Position numbers and translations under genes: made by a program. From a virus: a stretch of DNA of 22,447 bases. The notes beneath the pieces are model-generated. The model saw only the letters and a list, made by a program, of their open reading frames with translations, made no database searches and was not told the origin of the DNA. The stretch covers positions 1 through 22,447 of the IMG/VR virus record IMGVR_UViG_3300024346_000563. One strand, written 5' to 3'. Positions 4,169 to 12,497 of this stretch are shown in pieces (the first letter of the stretch is position 1; each line of letters begins with the position of its first letter).

Positions 4169-4176
4169 TATTTATA
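4169..4176 (-). promoter_or_regulatory. T4-type late promoter for the two paralogous genes
   Basis: The minus strand reads TATAAATA exactly, ending 27 nt before the ATG at 4141. A transcript would start near 4163. GGAAA just upstream of the ATG is the likely ribosome binding site. Confidence 0.7.
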
Positions 4177-4184
4177 TTATTATG

Positions 4185-4205
4185 TATATCTACTTCGTAG
4201 ATATA
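4185..4205. repeat. Perfect hairpin 1 (9-bp stem, 3-nt loop)
   Basis: TATATCTAC (4185-4193) pairs perfectly with GTAGATATA (4197-4205) around a TTC loop. It lies just upstream of the late promoter of the paralog genes. The right arm motif GTAGAT recurs at 4255 and 4306, so the left arm could pair elsewhere. Confidence 0.75.
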
Positions 4206-4263
4206 AGTTTTCGCTAAACGCTCAAACTACTTACACTTCGTTTTGATTAAAGCAGTAGATATG

Positions 4264-4298
4264 AATTAAAGCAATGTTACGATAGTAACATTGTAATT
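4264..4298. repeat. Perfect hairpin 2 (9-bp stem, GATA loop) with outer stem
   Basis: CAATGTTAC (4272-4280) pairs with GTAACATTG (4285-4293) around GATA. AATTA (4264-4268) can pair with TAATT (4294-4298) across a 3-nt bulge. An alternative 7-bp pairing, AAGCAAT (4269-4275) with ATTGCTT (4296-4302), would exclude that outer stem. On the minus strand the stem is followed by CTTTAATT, so weak terminator activity for the nuclease operon is possible. Confidence 0.75.
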
Positions 4299-4321
4299 GC
4301 TTCATGTAGATTGTTTCAGTC

Positions 4322-4349
4322 AGATGGAACCTACTAAGCGGTTCCATCT
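4322..4349. repeat. Perfect hairpin 3 (10-bp stem, 8-nt loop)
   Basis: AGATGGAACC (4322-4331) pairs perfectly with GGTTCCATCT (4340-4349) around an 8-nt loop. There is no U-tract on either side, so it is not a standard intrinsic terminator. It borders the G+C-rich island. Confidence 0.8.
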
Positions 4350-4645
4350 AATCTTGGTCTTCATGTGAGTTCGTCACAGCCGAGATTCGGAAGTAGGTAA
4401 TTGTTTATACACTTAGTTCAATGGGCTCTGACCTTACCCAACCTACGTCGACATCGTTGTTTCCAACTACCTCTCGCCTCGTTCCTATTGCTAAAGAGTT
4501 TTTATGAACTGTGTTGTGTTTTTCGATTGCTAACAGTCAACCTACGTCAATCCTGCCGCCCTACTACCGGACGCGGCTCAACGTGTACGAGTGTGATTCT
4601 CACGTCACCCTTTACTCAGCGGTAATATAAACTGGCCCGCTAACC

Positions 4646-5095
4646 TTATGTGTTAGATTGTTTTGCCTGGATGTGATGTTCTAGCAATGCCTGTTTGAGC
4701 TTGTCTGATCCGCCTACTCTAACATTGATGATACCATTGTAGTATTCATCTGTTTCAAGTACACGCCTATCAAACTGTTCTCTTGCCTCAATATAAGACA
4801 TTTCGCCTCTACCTTTACATAGGTATAATATTTCTCTTGTAAAGTACTTTTCGCCTAGTGCAGCTACATCTGCATTTAATCTGTCTGAACTACCATAGTA
4901 AGTCTTCCAGTCGCTTTCTTTGTAACCTCTACGCTTATTTTTTCTGCCTTTAAGTGGTGGCTTAGTAGTTTTAAATTTTGCTAGTTTTTTGCCTATGTAT
5001 TTCTGACCAGTTTTTTTATTCGTTATTAAATAAACGAATCCTTCGTACTCGTCTGGTATTTCTGTAATTTTTTTGCCTTTGTAAGTCCAGTGCAT
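4646..5095 (-). CDS. segE: GIY-YIG endonuclease, SegE type
   Basis: This 149-residue protein has the GIY-YIG core: GFVY (residues 19-22) and KYIG (32-35), followed by a basic loop (K36-R56), YYGSS (66-70), a helix with the probable metal-binding Glu (E103 in YIEAREQF), and YYNGIIN (118-124) with the conserved Asn. This is the pattern of the SegE-type putative endonucleases of T4-like phages, a group that includes freestanding homing nucleases. All key residues are present, so it may be active. It lies 26 nt after the 65-residue gene at the end of the gp47-gp46 operon, and a structured non-coding stretch follows its stop. No strong Shine-Dalgarno precedes the ATG. A domesticated replication or repair function is possible. 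Confidence 0.88.
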   Translation of the reverse strand: MHWTYKGKKITEIPDEYEGFVYLITNKKTGQKYIGKKLAKFKTTKPPLKGRKNKRRGYKESDWKTYYGSSDRLNADVAALGEKYFTREILYLCKGRGEMSYIEAREQFDRRVLETDEYYNGIINVRVGGSDKLKQALLEHHIQAKQSNT

Positions 5096-5319: not shown

Positions 5320-7088
5320 TCTATAATATCTATATCATTAGCATAACTTGTAAATCCATTTTCTTTAACAACCTTCATAACGTGATTTACTCGTCCAACT
5401 AACTCATCCTTATGTGAAATTAAATAAACATTTTTATTACGTTCTCTGCCCATCTTTTTAAGAACTGCTAGTGATCCTTCAACACCTGCTGTGTCCATGC
5501 CACTATCAATTAATTCATCAATAAACAACAAGTTGATATTTTGATATAAACTTTCCCAAACGTCACGGAATGCAAAACTCATACCAAGGATAAGTCTGTT
5601 GCGTTCGCCTCTGCTCAAGTTATCAAAGTCTAAGTCTTGTCCTAACTGCGTAATCTCAACATTCAAATCGTTTTGGAACAACACCTGATGCGGTAATCCT
5701 AGTTTGTCAAGATAGTATGTAAGTCGATTATTTAAATATGCTAGATTCTGATCAATAATTTTCTTACGAATAAAACTATCTTTATTTGTAAGTAATTTTT
5801 GTAAAAACTCTTGATGTTCTTTTAAATTTGTTAGTTCGTTAACTATATTCCAATTAACATCAACAAGAGCTGAATTGCTTAACTCATCAATTTGTGTTTG
5901 ATATGGATCAATTTCATCCTGTTTATTAGTAAGAGCAGTTTTTAAACTATCAACATTTTGTCTATGTTCGTATGCTTCTTTTGCAGTATCATAGAATGTA
6001 GTAGGCTTACCGTTAATATCACCGATTTCTTCAAGTGCTTTCATTACTTGAACTACTTTACCTGCAACTTCTTGTTGATATACAGTTGCATCAGAAAACT
6101 CTTTGTTCTTACGTTCTGCAATTTCTGCTTTTTTGTCTGCATGTAGTTCTTGCCCACACGTATAACATACAGCATCTTCTAAATCTGCGATATCTTTAGA
6201 CGCCTTTTCAACACTCTTGTCAGCACGTAATAGTGCAGGCTCTAATGTGCTTAATTCTTTTCTAAGAGCCAAAATAGCATTATTATGTTCAGTCCAATTA
6301 GCAAGTTTTTCGTGCGAATCTAACTCAATATCAATGTTTAAATGTTCTAATTCGTCGATTGCAGATGATAAATTATCGCTATCTGTGCGTCTTTTTGATA
6401 ACCATGCTTTTTGTGTATTCTTTAAACTAGTAATAGTACTTTCAATTTTACTATTTGCAGATTGTATAGCTTCTATTTTTAGAGTTTCTTCAGTAATAGA
6501 ATCTTTAGTAGTGCGTATTTGTTCTTTTAGCACTTCAGCTTTTTCGCTTAGGATAGTTATACCTAATAATTGTTCGATAATAGCACGTTGATCATTTTGA
6601 CGCATACTTAAAAACGGTTCTGTATATGTGTTTAATGCAACAATGTGTTTAAACATGTCGTGACTCATATTAAGAAGATTATTGATATGTTCTTGTGTCT
6701 TGCGTGAATCACCTTGCGACTCGTCAACCATTTCTTGTTCTTGGTCGTTTATATAGAACTTAAGAATATTAGGAGATCTGCCTCTTTCTATTCTATAATC
6801 TTGGCCGTCCTTTTCAAAATGCAATGTGACTAACATGCCTTTTGAATTAGTTTTATTAATTAAATTGTTTCTTTTAATATTAGTAAGAGCAGTGCCATAC
6901 AATGCATATGACAACGCATTAATGATTGTTGTCTTGCCTGTACCGTTGCGTGATCCTGTATCATCGCCGCCTTGGTCTAAATTTTCGCCTAATACAAGAG
7001 TTAGTTGTTCCTTATCAAAATCAACTGCTTGAGTTTGATTGCCAACACTCATAAAATTCTTTACGGTTAAATCTTTAATACGTATCAT
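5316..7088 (-). CDS. gp46: Recombination endonuclease subunit gp46 (Rad50/SbcC-like ATPase)
   Basis: This 590-residue SMC-type ATPase pairs with gp47 to resect double-strand ends for recombination-dependent replication and to degrade host DNA. The N-terminal Walker A lies in GSRNGTGKTT (residues 45-54), within the marine-phage form preceded by NLDQGGDDT. Long coiled coils flank a zinc hook, C308-Y-T-C311-G, which dimerises the ATPase. The C-terminal half has the ABC signature LSRGE (491-495), Walker B NLLFIDE (519-525) and the switch histidine ISH (557-559). T4 gp46 is 560 residues, so this is full length. The gp47 stop and the gp46 ATG overlap by 4 nt (7085-7088). All active residues are intact. 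Confidence 0.96.
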   Translation of the reverse strand: MIRIKDLTVKNFMSVGNQTQAVDFDKEQLTLVLGENLDQGGDDTGSRNGTGKTTIINALSYALYGTALTNIKRNNLINKTNSKGMLVTLHFEKDGQDYRIERGRSPNILKFYINDQEQEMVDESQGDSRKTQEHINNLLNMSHDMFKHIVALNTYTEPFLSMRQNDQRAIIEQLLGITILSEKAEVLKEQIRTTKDSITEETLKIEAIQSANSKIESTITSLKNTQKAWLSKRRTDSDNLSSAIDELEHLNIDIELDSHEKLANWTEHNNAILALRKELSTLEPALLRADKSVEKASKDIADLEDAVCYTCGQELHADKKAEIAERKNKEFSDATVYQQEVAGKVVQVMKALEEIGDINGKPTTFYDTAKEAYEHRQNVDSLKTALTNKQDEIDPYQTQIDELSNSALVDVNWNIVNELTNLKEHQEFLQKLLTNKDSFIRKKIIDQNLAYLNNRLTYYLDKLGLPHQVLFQNDLNVEITQLGQDLDFDNLSRGERNRLILGMSFAFRDVWESLYQNINLLFIDELIDSGMDTAGVEGSLAVLKKMGRERNKNVYLISHKDELVGRVNHVMKVVKENGFTSYANDIDIIE

Positions 7089-8095
7089 AGTTCGTTATAG
7101 ATGTCCAATAGAAGTTTCTTATTAAAACTATCACTATCGATAGCTGATATTTCTTTAGATACAATTTCGTCAACGCTTTCAAATGTTGATATATCTAATT
7201 CGGTTGTTATTTCTTCAATTTGTTTTTGCGGTATAAGTGTAATCTCTCTGCACTTATATTGACTAATATAAGTTTCTTTAATAAAACTTGCTTCTTCGTA
7301 ACTAATCGGAACATCAATAGTAACACGCAAATACATATTATTTTTAATAATATTTTGATCAGGATCAAGAAGTTTACTTAGTGTAGTTGTGCGATACTTA
7401 GGACAGTCGGGCCAGTTAATGTACTCTGGCTCTGCATTGTTTTCACGATCTAATATCATCATACCACGATCATCATCCCATGCATCAGCATAGTTGTGCG
7501 GAAATGCATTACCTAAGTAGTGTACTACACCTTGTTGTTGACGTTTGTGGAAGTGGCCACTAAACACATAAGATTGATTAGCAAAGTCTTCAGCTCTAAG
7601 TTCACCGTGATCGGGCATCTGAACCATTGCATTCATATAAAAGCTAGGAAGTTCAAAATGACCGAAAATATATTTACTATCAATTTCTTTAAGTTTCTTC
7701 CATTCTTCGCCTACTAACCACGGAACAAGAGTTACATCGTCAATAGTAGTAATCTCGTCAATAAATGTAATACCAGGAATATATTGTGCAAATGCTGTTG
7801 AATTTACATCACGTTTGTCTTTGTAGTATAAGTCGTGGTTACCATCAAAGAAGTAAAACTTTTCAAATGCAGAACCTAGTTTTTCCATACAACGTATTGT
7901 TGCATCCATTGTAGTAAGATTAAGTGCATTCCTATTGTGATGCCAATCTCCACAGAAGATACCAGTTTCACAGTTATGTGCCTTGGCTTGTTCAATATAC
8001 CAGTCTATAAAGGCTTCGCAGTCGTCATTATGCATACGACTGTTGCCTTTTAATCCAAAATGAATGTCTGTAAAGACTGCTGCTTTTTTAAACAA
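7085..8095 (-). CDS. gp47: Recombination endonuclease subunit gp47 (Mre11/SbcD-like nuclease)
   Basis: A 336-residue metallophosphoesterase and nuclease partner of gp46, close to the 339 residues of T4 gp47. Metal-binding motifs occur in order: D10-I-H12, GDWHHN (49-54), GNHD (85-88), a GHFE (145-148) and GHFH (180-183). The C-terminal third would bind the gp46 coiled-coil base. The start is TTG at 8095-8093: it is the first start after an in-frame TAG, lies 7 nt after AAGGA, and leaves the DIH motif at the usual distance from the N-terminus; the next ATG (codon 21) would remove that motif. A strong sigma-70-type promoter lies directly upstream, so the operon can be read by unmodified host polymerase. 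Confidence 0.95.
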   Translation of the reverse strand: MFKKAAVFTDIHFGLKGNSRMHNDDCEAFIDWYIEQAKAHNCETGIFCGDWHHNRNALNLTTMDATIRCMEKLGSAFEKFYFFDGNHDLYYKDKRDVNSTAFAQYIPGITFIDEITTIDDVTLVPWLVGEEWKKLKEIDSKYIFGHFELPSFYMNAMVQMPDHGELRAEDFANQSYVFSGHFHKRQQQGVVHYLGNAFPHNYADAWDDDRGMMILDRENNAEPEYINWPDCPKYRTTTLSKLLDPDQNIIKNNMYLRVTIDVPISYEEASFIKETYISQYKCREITLIPQKQIEEITTELDISTFESVDEIVSKEISAIDSDSFNKKLLLDIYNEL

Positions 8096-8108
8096 ATGAA
8101 GATCCTTC

Positions 8109-8152
8109 TATATACGATTACATATACAATTATATACGATTATATAAGATTA
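8109..8152. repeat. Short direct repeats in the gp47 promoter
   Basis: TATATACGATTA occurs at 8109-8120 and 8131-8142, and the variant TATATAAGATTA at 8141-8152. The -10 box and spacer lie within these repeats, so they could be a binding site for a phage regulator. They could also be only AT-rich drift. Confidence 0.55.
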
Positions 8153-8157
8153 GTCAA
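8129..8157 (-). promoter_or_regulatory. Host sigma-70-type promoter for gp47-gp46
   Basis: On the minus strand TTGACT (8157-8152) and TATAAT (8134-8129) are separated by exactly 17 bp, 11 of 12 matches to the bacterial consensus. The start would be near 8122, about 27 nt before the TTG codon of gp47. It lies in the 67-bp gap between gp55 and gp47. Confidence 0.75.
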
Positions 8158-8162
8158 GAGGT

Positions 8163-8984
8163 TTATTTGATGCCTTGCTCTCGTTTTACAGAAGCTTCCC
8201 ATTCTCCTGCATGTTGTCTAGTATAACTAGGATCTAATCCGTTTTGTTCTAAGATGTCGTCTCTAATGTTTTGATTGCGTTTTTCAATGTTGATAACACG
8301 TACAAATGAGTTTGTGACTGCCGCTGTGTAGTAAGCAAACGGGTTGTTTGATTTGCTTTCATCAAACTGTAAACCAATTTGAGCAAGTTGCAATATTGCT
8401 TGTCCACGCATTTCATCATTGTAGGTGTATCCTCTCACATTTCCTCGTGTTGCGTATCTTTCACACAGTTTCATCCACATCATAGCAAGGTTATTAGTTG
8501 CTTTTCCGTGATCTTTACTAAAATAACCGTTTCCCATAGCACCAACCCAATGGCTTTTACCTACACAGTATAATTCTCCTTGATCATTAAATTTATAATG
8601 TTGAAAGGGAGGAAAGTTTAATTTTGTTTTTGTATCTGCAACTGTTTTAGGAGTTTTCTTCCTTCCAGGTTCGTCGGGTACATGATCAAATGTCATAATA
8701 CGAAATATTAATTCTTCTTTTGTAATTTTTCTATAATCAATTTCACATTCGGCTTGTTTTACTTTTTCTCCAGCTAGTTTACGTGCTTCGTACTCAGCAT
8801 TGCCTAAACGTTTTGCTTTATTGCGTTTTGCTTCTGCAATAGTTCTAACATTAATTTTTTTAATTTCGGATAAAATTATATCGTATTGTGCATAGTCTTT
8901 TTCTGTATAACTACAAAAACTCATTTTTGATTTATGTATTTCTTTTAGCATATCTTTGTTGTTTAGATAATTTTGTCTTCTCAT
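8163..8984 (-). CDS. gp55: Late-transcription sigma factor gp55
   Basis: This 273-residue protein is the T4-type sigma factor that directs RNA polymerase to TATAAATA late promoters. The diagnostic C-terminal block NPFAYYTAAVTNSFVRVIN (residues 214-232), followed by KRNQNIRDDIL, matches the gp55 region related to sigma region 2. T4 gp55 is 185 residues; here about 100 extra residues lie at the N-terminus, including a basic helical stretch (48-85) and a Lys/Pro segment (108-120). The C-terminus ends KREQGIK and shows no obvious hydrophobic/acidic clamp-binding tail of the kind used by T4 gp55 to contact gp45. It is preceded by TAGGAAC as ribosome binding site and a consensus sigma-70 promoter. 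Exact late-promoter octamers elsewhere in the window support an active gp55. Confidence 0.93.
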   Translation of the reverse strand: MRRQNYLNNKDMLKEIHKSKMSFCSYTEKDYAQYDIILSEIKKINVRTIAEAKRNKAKRLGNAEYEARKLAGEKVKQAECEIDYRKITKEELIFRIMTFDHVPDEPGRKKTPKTVADTKTKLNFPPFQHYKFNDQGELYCVGKSHWVGAMGNGYFSKDHGKATNNLAMMWMKLCERYATRGNVRGYTYNDEMRGQAILQLAQIGLQFDESKSNNPFAYYTAAVTNSFVRVINIEKRNQNIRDDILEQNGLDPSYTRQHAGEWEASVKREQGIK

Positions 8985-10121: not shown

Positions 10122-12497
10122 ATGGCATCAAACGAAGATATTATCAAAGCGGATGTTGCAGGCAGAACAAATGACCTCAATCAAGCAGCACGAGAGTTTA
10201 ATGACGGCGAATATGGACAACCTATAAGTAGTGGTAGTATAGGTAGTTCGGGTAAAGAACCTAACGAATTAGAACAATTTTCAAATGGAACATTTAAATT
10301 TACTTTAGCAGTATTATCAAGTACTCAAATGGCATATCCTGAAAAAACTTATAGAGCAGGTCAAAGTGTAAAGACAATATTACAAAGTGGTGGAGGATTA
10401 GCAGCAACAAAAGCTATAACTGCATATGAAGGCGAATCTGGAAGAGTAGAATACTTTATAGATGATATAGACATTGAAGCAATTATTGCTCCAACTACAT
10501 CACAGCGAGCTACAAATGCTACTAACATTCAGTTTAAAGTAATGGAACCGTATAGCATGGGTTTATTTTTACAAACTCTACAAATTGCTGCTGCTGAAGA
10601 ATATAGAAATTATCTTGAAACTCCTCTATTGCTTACTTTAGAATTTTTAGGTCAAGATGACGATGGAAATTTTATTGGTAGTGTAAGTAAAAGATTTTTT
10701 CCTCTTAAAATAGTAAACATGGATATGAATGTTACTGGCGGCGGCACTGTATATGATGTCACCGCAGTTCCATATAATGAAATTAGTCTTACTAATGCAA
10801 TACAAACAATGACCAATGATGTTGAATTAACAGGATCTACATTAGATGAAATTTTAGAGTCAGGTCCCCAAAGTTTATCAGCTACAATTAATGCACAAAT
10901 GATAGAACAAATTAACGTAGGGCAAGGAACTAGACCTAGTGAATTTGTAATTATTTTTCCTAAAGATGTTGCATCTACCAGTGGTAGCGCAGGATCAGCA
11001 GATAGCAGAAGTAATATACAGAGCGTACTTTATGATATGACACAAAACGGCAATGCTCCTAGTGTACCTAGATTTAATATTGGAGATTTAGGCATTGGAA
11101 TTGGAAATTCGACTAATAGAGCAGCAGTTACTCAAAGCTCAAAAGAATATATTGCACGTAAATCAAACATATCAGGAAAATTAAAAGAAAATATAGGTGG
11201 CAATATTAATAGTATTGGTAAATCTACACTTGCAAACAGTATTGATGTTCCAGGAAATCATCCTTTAAATAAAGCAGGTTTAACTTATAACGAAGAAACA
11301 TTATTATTTGAAAATGATAAAATGAGTGTAAGTCATGATTTAAGAACTTACACGTTTCCTAAAGGTTCAAAAATACAAGATATTATTGAAGAACTTGTAA
11401 TTATTAGTGATTACGGTAAAAAATTTGCCGAACCTCGTCCTGATAGTGTTGGAATGGTTGATTGGTTTAAAATTGAAACCGAAGTATATCCAATAGCAGA
11501 TGCTGAAGAACAACGTCGAACAGGCACAACGCCAAAAATTTATGTATATAAAGTTGTGCCATATAAAGTACATCTAGCAACAATTTCTAGTCCAACACAA
11601 ACTGCTCCAGGATTTGAAAGATTAAAACAACTTGCTAATAAACAATATGATTATATCTATACCGGTGCAAATAATGATATATTAGATTTTGAAATTAATC
11701 TAAATAACCAATTTTTTAGTGCATTAAGTGCTGACGGTGATGCACTTTCGGCAACTAGTGTTACTTCTACAAAATCTAGTACGAGTGCAACCGGAGAAGC
11801 TCAAGCAACACCTAGCCAAGGCGGCTCTTCAGGTCAAAACGGAGGACGCACAGGTAGAACAGGAACACACAGTACTGGTACTATAGGAGGCGGCAGCAGT
11901 GAAAGTGTTGCTACTAGAGTTGCTAGATCTTTTCATGATAGTATAGTAAACAGTCGAGTTGATTTAGTTACAATTACTTTTAATATTATAGGAGATCCTT
12001 ATTATCTATCAGACAGCGGAATGGGAAATTATAATAGTAGAGCTGGAACATTAAATATTACACAAGACGGACAAATGGATTATCAACGAAGTGAAGTTGA
12101 TATTATTATAAATTTTAGAACCCCAATTGATTATAATGATAATACAGGACTTATGGATTTTCCAGAAGATACAGTTCCTGTAGAACCGTTTAGTGGATTA
12201 TATAAGGTAATCAAAGTTCAATCAAGATTTGCTGGCGGAAGATTTACACAAGAATTAGAATGCATACGTAGAATTAATCAAGAAGGAAAATCAACAGGAC
12301 AAAGTGCATACAAACAATTTGACGGAAACGCCGGAGCGTTAGATAATTCAGGAAGAGCAACAGGAACTCCGGCAGCCGCAAATGCGCAAGATAACCCTAC
12401 AATTAAAGAACAAGTAGCTTTATCAAGAACAGCTCGAACAGAAAATGCTAATAGTCGTTTAGCAGATATTAAACGTGGTATTATACGAGGATTTTAA
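10122..12497 (+). CDS. Large baseplate protein, putative hub (gp27/gpD-like)
   Basis: A 791-residue structural protein immediately before the gp5 spike. Residues 50-245 are beta-rich (FTLAVLSSTQMAYPEKTYRAG; FFPLKIVNMDMNVTGGGTVYDV). A second region (395-540) contains VDWFKIETEVYPI and YDYIYTGANNDILDFEINLN. A Ser/Gly/Thr-rich linker spans about 540-600. The C-terminal region (605-720) ends in SGLYKVIKVQSRFAGGRFTQELECIR, which resembles the last strands of phage hub proteins of the gpD/gp27 type (Y-x-V-x-x-V-x-(H/S)-x-F-x-x-G-x-FT-x-x-L). In those phages the hub trimer holds the spike, which fits the adjacent gp5. No gp27 homologue is otherwise visible here, so I infer this is the hub. Sequence similarity to T4 gp27 is not evident by eye. 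Confidence 0.6.
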   Translation: MASNEDIIKADVAGRTNDLNQAAREFNDGEYGQPISSGSIGSSGKEPNELEQFSNGTFKFTLAVLSSTQMAYPEKTYRAGQSVKTILQSGGGLAATKAITAYEGESGRVEYFIDDIDIEAIIAPTTSQRATNATNIQFKVMEPYSMGLFLQTLQIAAAEEYRNYLETPLLLTLEFLGQDDDGNFIGSVSKRFFPLKIVNMDMNVTGGGTVYDVTAVPYNEISLTNAIQTMTNDVELTGSTLDEILESGPQSLSATINAQMIEQINVGQGTRPSEFVIIFPKDVASTSGSAGSADSRSNIQSVLYDMTQNGNAPSVPRFNIGDLGIGIGNSTNRAAVTQSSKEYIARKSNISGKLKENIGGNINSIGKSTLANSIDVPGNHPLNKAGLTYNEETLLFENDKMSVSHDLRTYTFPKGSKIQDIIEELVIISDYGKKFAEPRPDSVGMVDWFKIETEVYPIADAEEQRRTGTTPKIYVYKVVPYKVHLATISSPTQTAPGFERLKQLANKQYDYIYTGANNDILDFEINLNNQFFSALSADGDALSATSVTSTKSSTSATGEAQATPSQGGSSGQNGGRTGRTGTHSTGTIGGGSSESVATRVARSFHDSIVNSRVDLVTITFNIIGDPYYLSDSGMGNYNSRAGTLNITQDGQMDYQRSEVDIIINFRTPIDYNDNTGLMDFPEDTVPVEPFSGLYKVIKVQSRFAGGRFTQELECIRRINQEGKSTGQSAYKQFDGNAGALDNSGRATGTPAAANAQDNPTIKEQVALSRTARTENANSRLADIKRGIIRGF

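Follow-up and report, generated by a model that had tools for sequence, protein, structure and literature searches.

The window analysed here, a stretch of 22,447 nucleotides, is a fragment of a T4-related myovirus. Its minus strand carries the genes for the late sigma factor, gp47 and gp46, a 65-amino acid ORF, a SegE-family GIY-YIG endonuclease gene (4646-5095, minus strand; PF19835, 2.5e-35) and a non-coding stretch. Two genes of no assigned function end this series; they lie behind a T4-type late promoter, TATAAATA, which is read directly in the sequence at 4169-4176 (minus strand) and serves the next gene (4141-3563). The closest cultured phages according to gp6 and gp46 are giant T4-like phages, for example Phosso, Salicola SCTP-2, Atu_ph07, Paride and PA5oct, with identities that do not reach 60% in any case. 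ARAGORN finds no tRNA or tmRNA in the window. Between the structured RNA described below and the late promoter, at 4190-4250 (minus strand), a conserved UUUGAGCG-UUAGCGAAAAC stretch, which is kept in many T4-like relatives, is followed by a hairpin (here UAUCUACGAAGUAGAUA).

An initial annotation had described a G+C-rich island at 4381-4640 as a candidate new structured RNA lying between the GIY-YIG nuclease gene and the late promoter, and that location is correct. The G+C content of the island is 46.9%, versus 33.6% for the window, in agreement with the annotated values (about 47% and about a third), and only 0.96% of the 260-nt segments are as rich; the 55% announced for the last 60 bases is 50% when measured. 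Coding DNA near 13.9 kb reaches 51% G+C, more than the island, so composition alone is little proof of a structured RNA. In single-sequence folding, the exact RNA folds slightly better than its shuffles (z = -1.3). The composition was taken as the signature of a structured RNA: the RNA is real, but composition and single-sequence folding do not prove it by themselves. The absence of a credible ORF is confirmed. A plus-strand ORF of 74 amino acids (4401-4625) is broken by stops in many relatives, and the length of a variable hairpin is not a multiple of three (24, 33 and 24 for residues 0, 1 and 2, respectively); conserved coding is absent from the region of the RNA.

The island is real but is only a part of the element, which is a structured RNA of 353 nt spanning 4299-4651 and read from the minus strand, as are all the features that follow. 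It is supported by nhmmer and cmsearch matches and by covariation. The 5' end, ACAUAAGGUU, at 4651, overlaps the stop codon of the GIY-YIG gene, and the 3' end lies just past the second of two identical 7-nt words. The structure was established with 30 members chosen at less than 86% identity, and consists of 17 named helix segments and 82 pairs, including a long-range pseudoknot. Helix P1 closes the RNA by pairing AGGUU (4642-4646) with AAUCU (4308-4312), with 95% of the cells paired and little variation. It encloses the hairpin P2 (GCGG/CCGC, 4619-4640), in which the four pairs all show two-sided changes, the hairpin P3 (4589-4617), which has a variable tip and compensatory changes (U-A/A-U, G-C/C-G), the helix P4 (ACGUUGA/UUGACGU, 4544-4584), which carries exchangeable inner hairpins, is 98% paired and shows two-sided changes in 4 of its 7 pairs, and the hairpin P5 (GGUUG/CAAUC, 4525-4542; 97% paired). 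The first strand of the pseudoknot, CAC-A-GUUCA (4505-4513), covaries with the second, UGAAC-UAA-GUG (4410-4420), and the inner helix is 100% paired. P6 (4471-4498) has a nearly invariant loop motif, AGGAACGA, and is 95% paired with compensatory changes. The variable hairpin P7 (4456-4467) has 4 base pairs here and is much longer in some relatives; its outer cells are 90% paired and show many pair types. The most conserved part is the near invariant P9/P10 core, with the P8 strand just before (GACGUAGGUUGGGUAAGGUCAGAGCCCAUUG ... ACCUACUUC, 4390-4449; 98-99% paired). Downstream are P11 (4351-4386; 82% paired), whose loop contains word 1 (ACAUGAA, 4360-4366), the hairpin P12 (AGAUGGAACC/GGUUCCAUCU, 4322-4349; 95% paired) and the unpaired word 2 (ACAUGAA, 4301-4307), at the 3' border of the conserved element.

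The repeated 11-mer CAACCTACGTC that had been pointed out is present exactly, at 4439-4449 and 4538-4548, but its second copy is not kept in relatives; P9 and the P4/P5 junction thus share the 11-mer by chance, and the repeat is not a feature of the RNA. In 16 of the 106 distinct members (including L140, L108, L270, L273 and L124), P11 is followed by a run of at least six U, an arrangement that resembles an intrinsic terminator midway along the RNA. An AT-rich, weakly terminator-like hairpin (CAATGTTACTATCGTAACATTG CTTTAATT) follows the RNA at 4272-4293. In three members, the word AGAACCCU is found upstream of the RNA and again in the P4 region (L268, 2330-2560; L270, 1960-2150; L273, 7625-7900); a repeat of this type is in general not found outside the terminase-linked group of phages described below.

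Standard pairs form in 90.5% of the cells, compared to 82% after shuffling and 34-40% when the partners are slid; since the same sequences served in part to derive the structure, the slid control is biased towards it, a bias that is absent from the shuffles and from mutual information. Two-sided changes are seen in 35 pairs (23 ± 2 in shuffles) and in 211 cells (75 ± 8 in shuffles), and none of 500 shuffles matched the observed pairing or compensatory change, keeping in mind that the relatedness of the sequences inflates the shuffle results. Independently, the pseudoknot, P3, P4 and P6 are among the highest-ranking by mutual information calculated over 157 sequences. The inner helix of the pseudoknot exists as GUUCA/UGAAC, GUACA/UGUAC, ACACA/UGUGU and GUGCA/UGCAC. 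Compensatory base changes, the mark of a structured noncoding RNA, are therefore present beyond chance. The consensus energy is -107.5 for the minus strand, that of the GIY-YIG gene, versus -88.9 for the other, and conserved G-U pairs (e.g., a U-G in 27 of the 30 members) would be A-C if read on the opposite strand; both observations indicate that the RNA is on the same strand as the GIY-YIG gene.

The RNA is present in more than 170 IMG/VR contigs according to nhmmer and cmsearch, the members being mostly IMG/VR fragments and the E-values of the model being rough. The carriers are uncultured phages, mostly marine T4-like relatives of giant phages. The length of the RNA is about 350-420 nt and differs mainly by the one variable hairpin. 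A pattern made of the 20-nt core finds at least 120 contigs. Among the 80 best viral contigs selected by their GIY-YIG protein, the RNA is present in 61, entire in 56 and truncated by the end of the contig in 5, and nearly all of the others end before it could be complete. Many contigs, namely L005, L006, L010, L013, L018, L033, L036, L046, L052, L054, L064, L069, L071 and L080, stop no more than about 160 nt past the GIY-YIG gene; assemblies probably break at the conserved RNA when several strains that carry it co-occur. These ends are what could be cited in favour of an artefact (an assembly chimera, a host fragment or a chance composition), but the same fold is found in the same place in more than 170 contigs, the matches in prokaryote genomes are due to chance, and there is covariation, so that this explanation is already refuted and has virtually no probability left.

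In T4-like phages, the RNA is placed after gp47-gp46. Other sequence separates it from the GIY-YIG gene in L110, L124 and L148, and several relatives have about 700 extra nucleotides between gp46 and the small ORF that precedes the GIY-YIG gene (L060, L071, L080, L091, L111, L155 and L173). In a second phage group (L108, L115, L203-L205), the RNA comes before the small-terminase gene and has no GIY-YIG gene upstream. The RNA is therefore independent of the nuclease, whose gene is an upstream neighbour and not a required part of it. Relatives identified by their small-terminase protein include two much more divergent members, L268 (52 bits) and L270 (30 bits), and the sequence that these two have in common led to two more, L273/L274 and L275. 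In L275, which also has the RNA, a GIY-YIG gene 46% identical to that of the window lies downstream of the small-terminase gene (11544-11951, minus strand).

Each of the long records searched has a single convincing copy of the RNA. Blastn searches of INPHARED phages with three different members gave nothing convincing, and one pattern scan of 84,980 prokaryote genomes did not find the RNA; two prokaryote contigs contain the 20-nt core, in both cases by chance and within genes. A pattern scan for members ending in TTGG gave three contigs, none of which is recognised by the model. Melnitz, whose genome holds the closest cultured relative of the nuclease, has no match to the RNA. Nor does the model match, with strict filters, five giant phages related by a baseplate or SbcC protein, and an unfiltered search of the Paride region equivalent to the RNA locus gave scores at the level of noise. 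In Pseudomonas phage Paride (L216), the matching place after gp46 (7055-8530) has only very short annotated ORFs, and there may be an unrelated or very distant noncoding element there.

The 7-nt word occurs at model columns 287-293 (the P11 loop) and 345-351 (the 3' end). Of 166 RNAs, 164 carry two identical copies, and the word has nine versions: ACAUGAA (126), ACAUAAU (15), ACAUGAU (8), ACAGAAA (4), ACAUAAA (3), ACGUGAA (3), ACAUGAG (2), ACAGGAA (2) and GUAUGAA (1). In L108, both are AUCAUCAAGU. A tree from which the word columns were left out gives about 19 changes for either word and about 20 for their joint state; the two copies thus share all but about one of the changes. The adjoining positions vary on their own and do not follow the words. 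The identity also holds in the four more distant RNAs, which were found via a neighbouring protein or core sequence and not via the words: L268 (ACAUCAAGU), L270 (AUCAUCAAGUUA), L273 (ACAUCAA) and L275 (ACAUCAAG). Joint changes could partly spread by recombination of the segment of about 65 nt that holds both words.

There is no column complementary to the words inside the RNA, none of the 38 RNAs with a variant word has its exact complement within 900 nt, and there is almost no such complement around the other RNAs. The partner of the words is thus not local. The complement is not enriched in six phage records (up to 236 kb), the phage records have no conserved complementary site at gene starts, and longer complementary matches in them are overall not above the control, with no consistent unusual one. 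A single match, of 14 nt in G003, comes near significance (1.75% of the controls reach it, in one test out of 12), and it does not recur in other records. Both words are predicted to be exposed, as for guides, one in a loop and the other unpaired at the end. That two copies are kept identical without a partner in the RNA suggests that they have a single partner, which acts in trans.

Rfam searches of the window and six homologous loci, with gathering and with relaxed thresholds (E up to 10), return only chance matches, and no description of the RNA was found in the open-access literature. To our knowledge, the word pair has no counterpart. The RNA is counted as new for these two reasons, that no described family matches it and that the word pair has no known counterpart. 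The new structured RNA that had been proposed, fitting no known class, is thus supported on several of the points by which the initial annotation had wanted it judged beforehand: alignment across relatives gives a conserved RNA, pairs covary with compensatory changes, Rfam offers chance matches only, and a chimera or host fragment is ruled out. We regard the existence of a new class of structured phage noncoding RNA as practically certain.

Large structured RNAs are already known in phages. GOLLD and ROOL are large pseudoknotted noncoding RNAs whose function is unknown (PMC12286853), and the RNA described here is like them in being large, pseudoknotted and phage-carried. It differs by its size (350-420 nt versus about 650-800 or more), by the pair of identical words and by the absence of a tRNA gene in the window, and it matches neither their covariance models nor those of OLE and other large RNAs of Rfam. 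Were "phage-borne large structured RNA" considered a single kind, the RNA would count as a new family within it. The size, the pseudoknot, the residence in phages and the single copy per record would also suit a large ornate RNA that self-assembles in the manner of GOLLD and ROOL (PMC12286853), with the words at the contacts between subunits. However, the words are identical instead of complementary, and covariation gives them no pairing partner among the other columns of the RNA, whereas the intermolecular contacts of GOLLD and ROOL are backed by sequence covariation (PMC12286853). We consider self-assembly unlikely.

The bridge RNA of IS110 elements has loop sequences that match the DNA at the ends of the element (PMC11208160), and here the loop word equals word 2 at the 3' border. 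The RNA could be part of an RNA-guided mobile DNA element, whose 3' end (word 2) would be matched by the loop word used by a nuclease or recombinase. Pairing of a loop with the opposite DNA strand needs identity and not complementarity, word 2 is exactly at the conserved 3' border, and the T4-like copies adjoin a GIY-YIG nuclease gene. Yet the locus is fixed in the T4-like group, no IS110 or other recombinase is seen, and the long records searched have no second convincing copy. There is a single word pair: nothing similar to the words exists at the 5' border, where the RNA's own similarity equals that of the control. The cognate recombinase or nuclease that a bridge RNA or omega RNA needs is not found, as the second phage group has no upstream GIY-YIG gene. 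A mobile element is therefore quite improbable.

In T4-like phages, the large pseudoknotted RNA adjoins a gene of the homing-endonuclease type, which recalls group I introns that carry a GIY-YIG gene. The words could then be the two sites of one reaction of a degenerate or unusual self-splicing intron, or of another ribozyme. We give this very little credence: the conserved core of group I or group II introns is not found, relaxing the Rfam thresholds does not bring up an intron or ribozyme either, and splicing would need an internal guide, when nothing in the RNA is complementary to the words. In addition, no gene is split that splicing would restore, the RNA of relatives lying between two separate genes, and the second phage group has no GIY-YIG gene upstream. 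Marine phages such as Melnitz have a two-piece tmRNA (PMC9004378), which is also a structured RNA of marine T4-like phages (PMC9004378). However, neither ARAGORN nor Rfam finds a tmRNA here (a tRNA-like domain with a tag frame), and Melnitz itself has no match to our RNA.

Antisense sRNAs such as RNAIII and Qrr have more than one identical seed, and resemble the phage RNA in repeating identical short single-stranded words within one molecule. These bacterial regulators have known mRNA targets; the phage RNA, in contrast, has no family match and no target was found in the phage records. The words, being seven nucleotides long, could also be protein sites. The RNA may be a cis-acting element, an attenuator or a processed 3' UTR located where the gp46 operon gives way to the late genes, with the words as sites of one protein of drifting specificity. 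Its fixed place between the replication/recombination operon and the late promoter, the U run after P11 and the weak terminator-like hairpin after the RNA agree with such a role, but the neighbours are different in the second phage group, a long pseudoknotted RNA exceeds the needs of a terminator, and protein sites would seldom vary so freely with two copies still identical. The cis-acting element is rather doubtful, and a protein of drifting specificity explains the data less simply than a guide RNA acting in trans.

The reading that we favour is that of a new free-standing class of phage RNA, which presents two identical guide words to one partner in trans; the guide role is inferred, and we judge the chances of this reading to be about even. 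The RNA would be made either as part of the gp47-gp46 operon transcript or from a promoter of its own, and would then be cut at about the closing helix P1. Its rigid fold would display both words for base-pairing with one and the same nucleic acid in trans. This partner would probably be an RNA or DNA of the host and would vary in sequence from host to host. A more specific proposal, which we put forward tentatively, is that two identical, co-evolving 7-nt guide words on a pseudoknotted scaffold engage one variable host nucleic acid, which would make up a guide-RNA system without known relative, common to two unrelated phage groups.

New classes of large structured RNA are rare, and those of phages, such as GOLLD and ROOL, are still without known function. 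The class described here is common in uncultured, mostly marine phages and occurs in two unrelated phage groups. The co-evolution of its words predicts that both read the same partner, which leads to a testable question: which molecule carries the complement?
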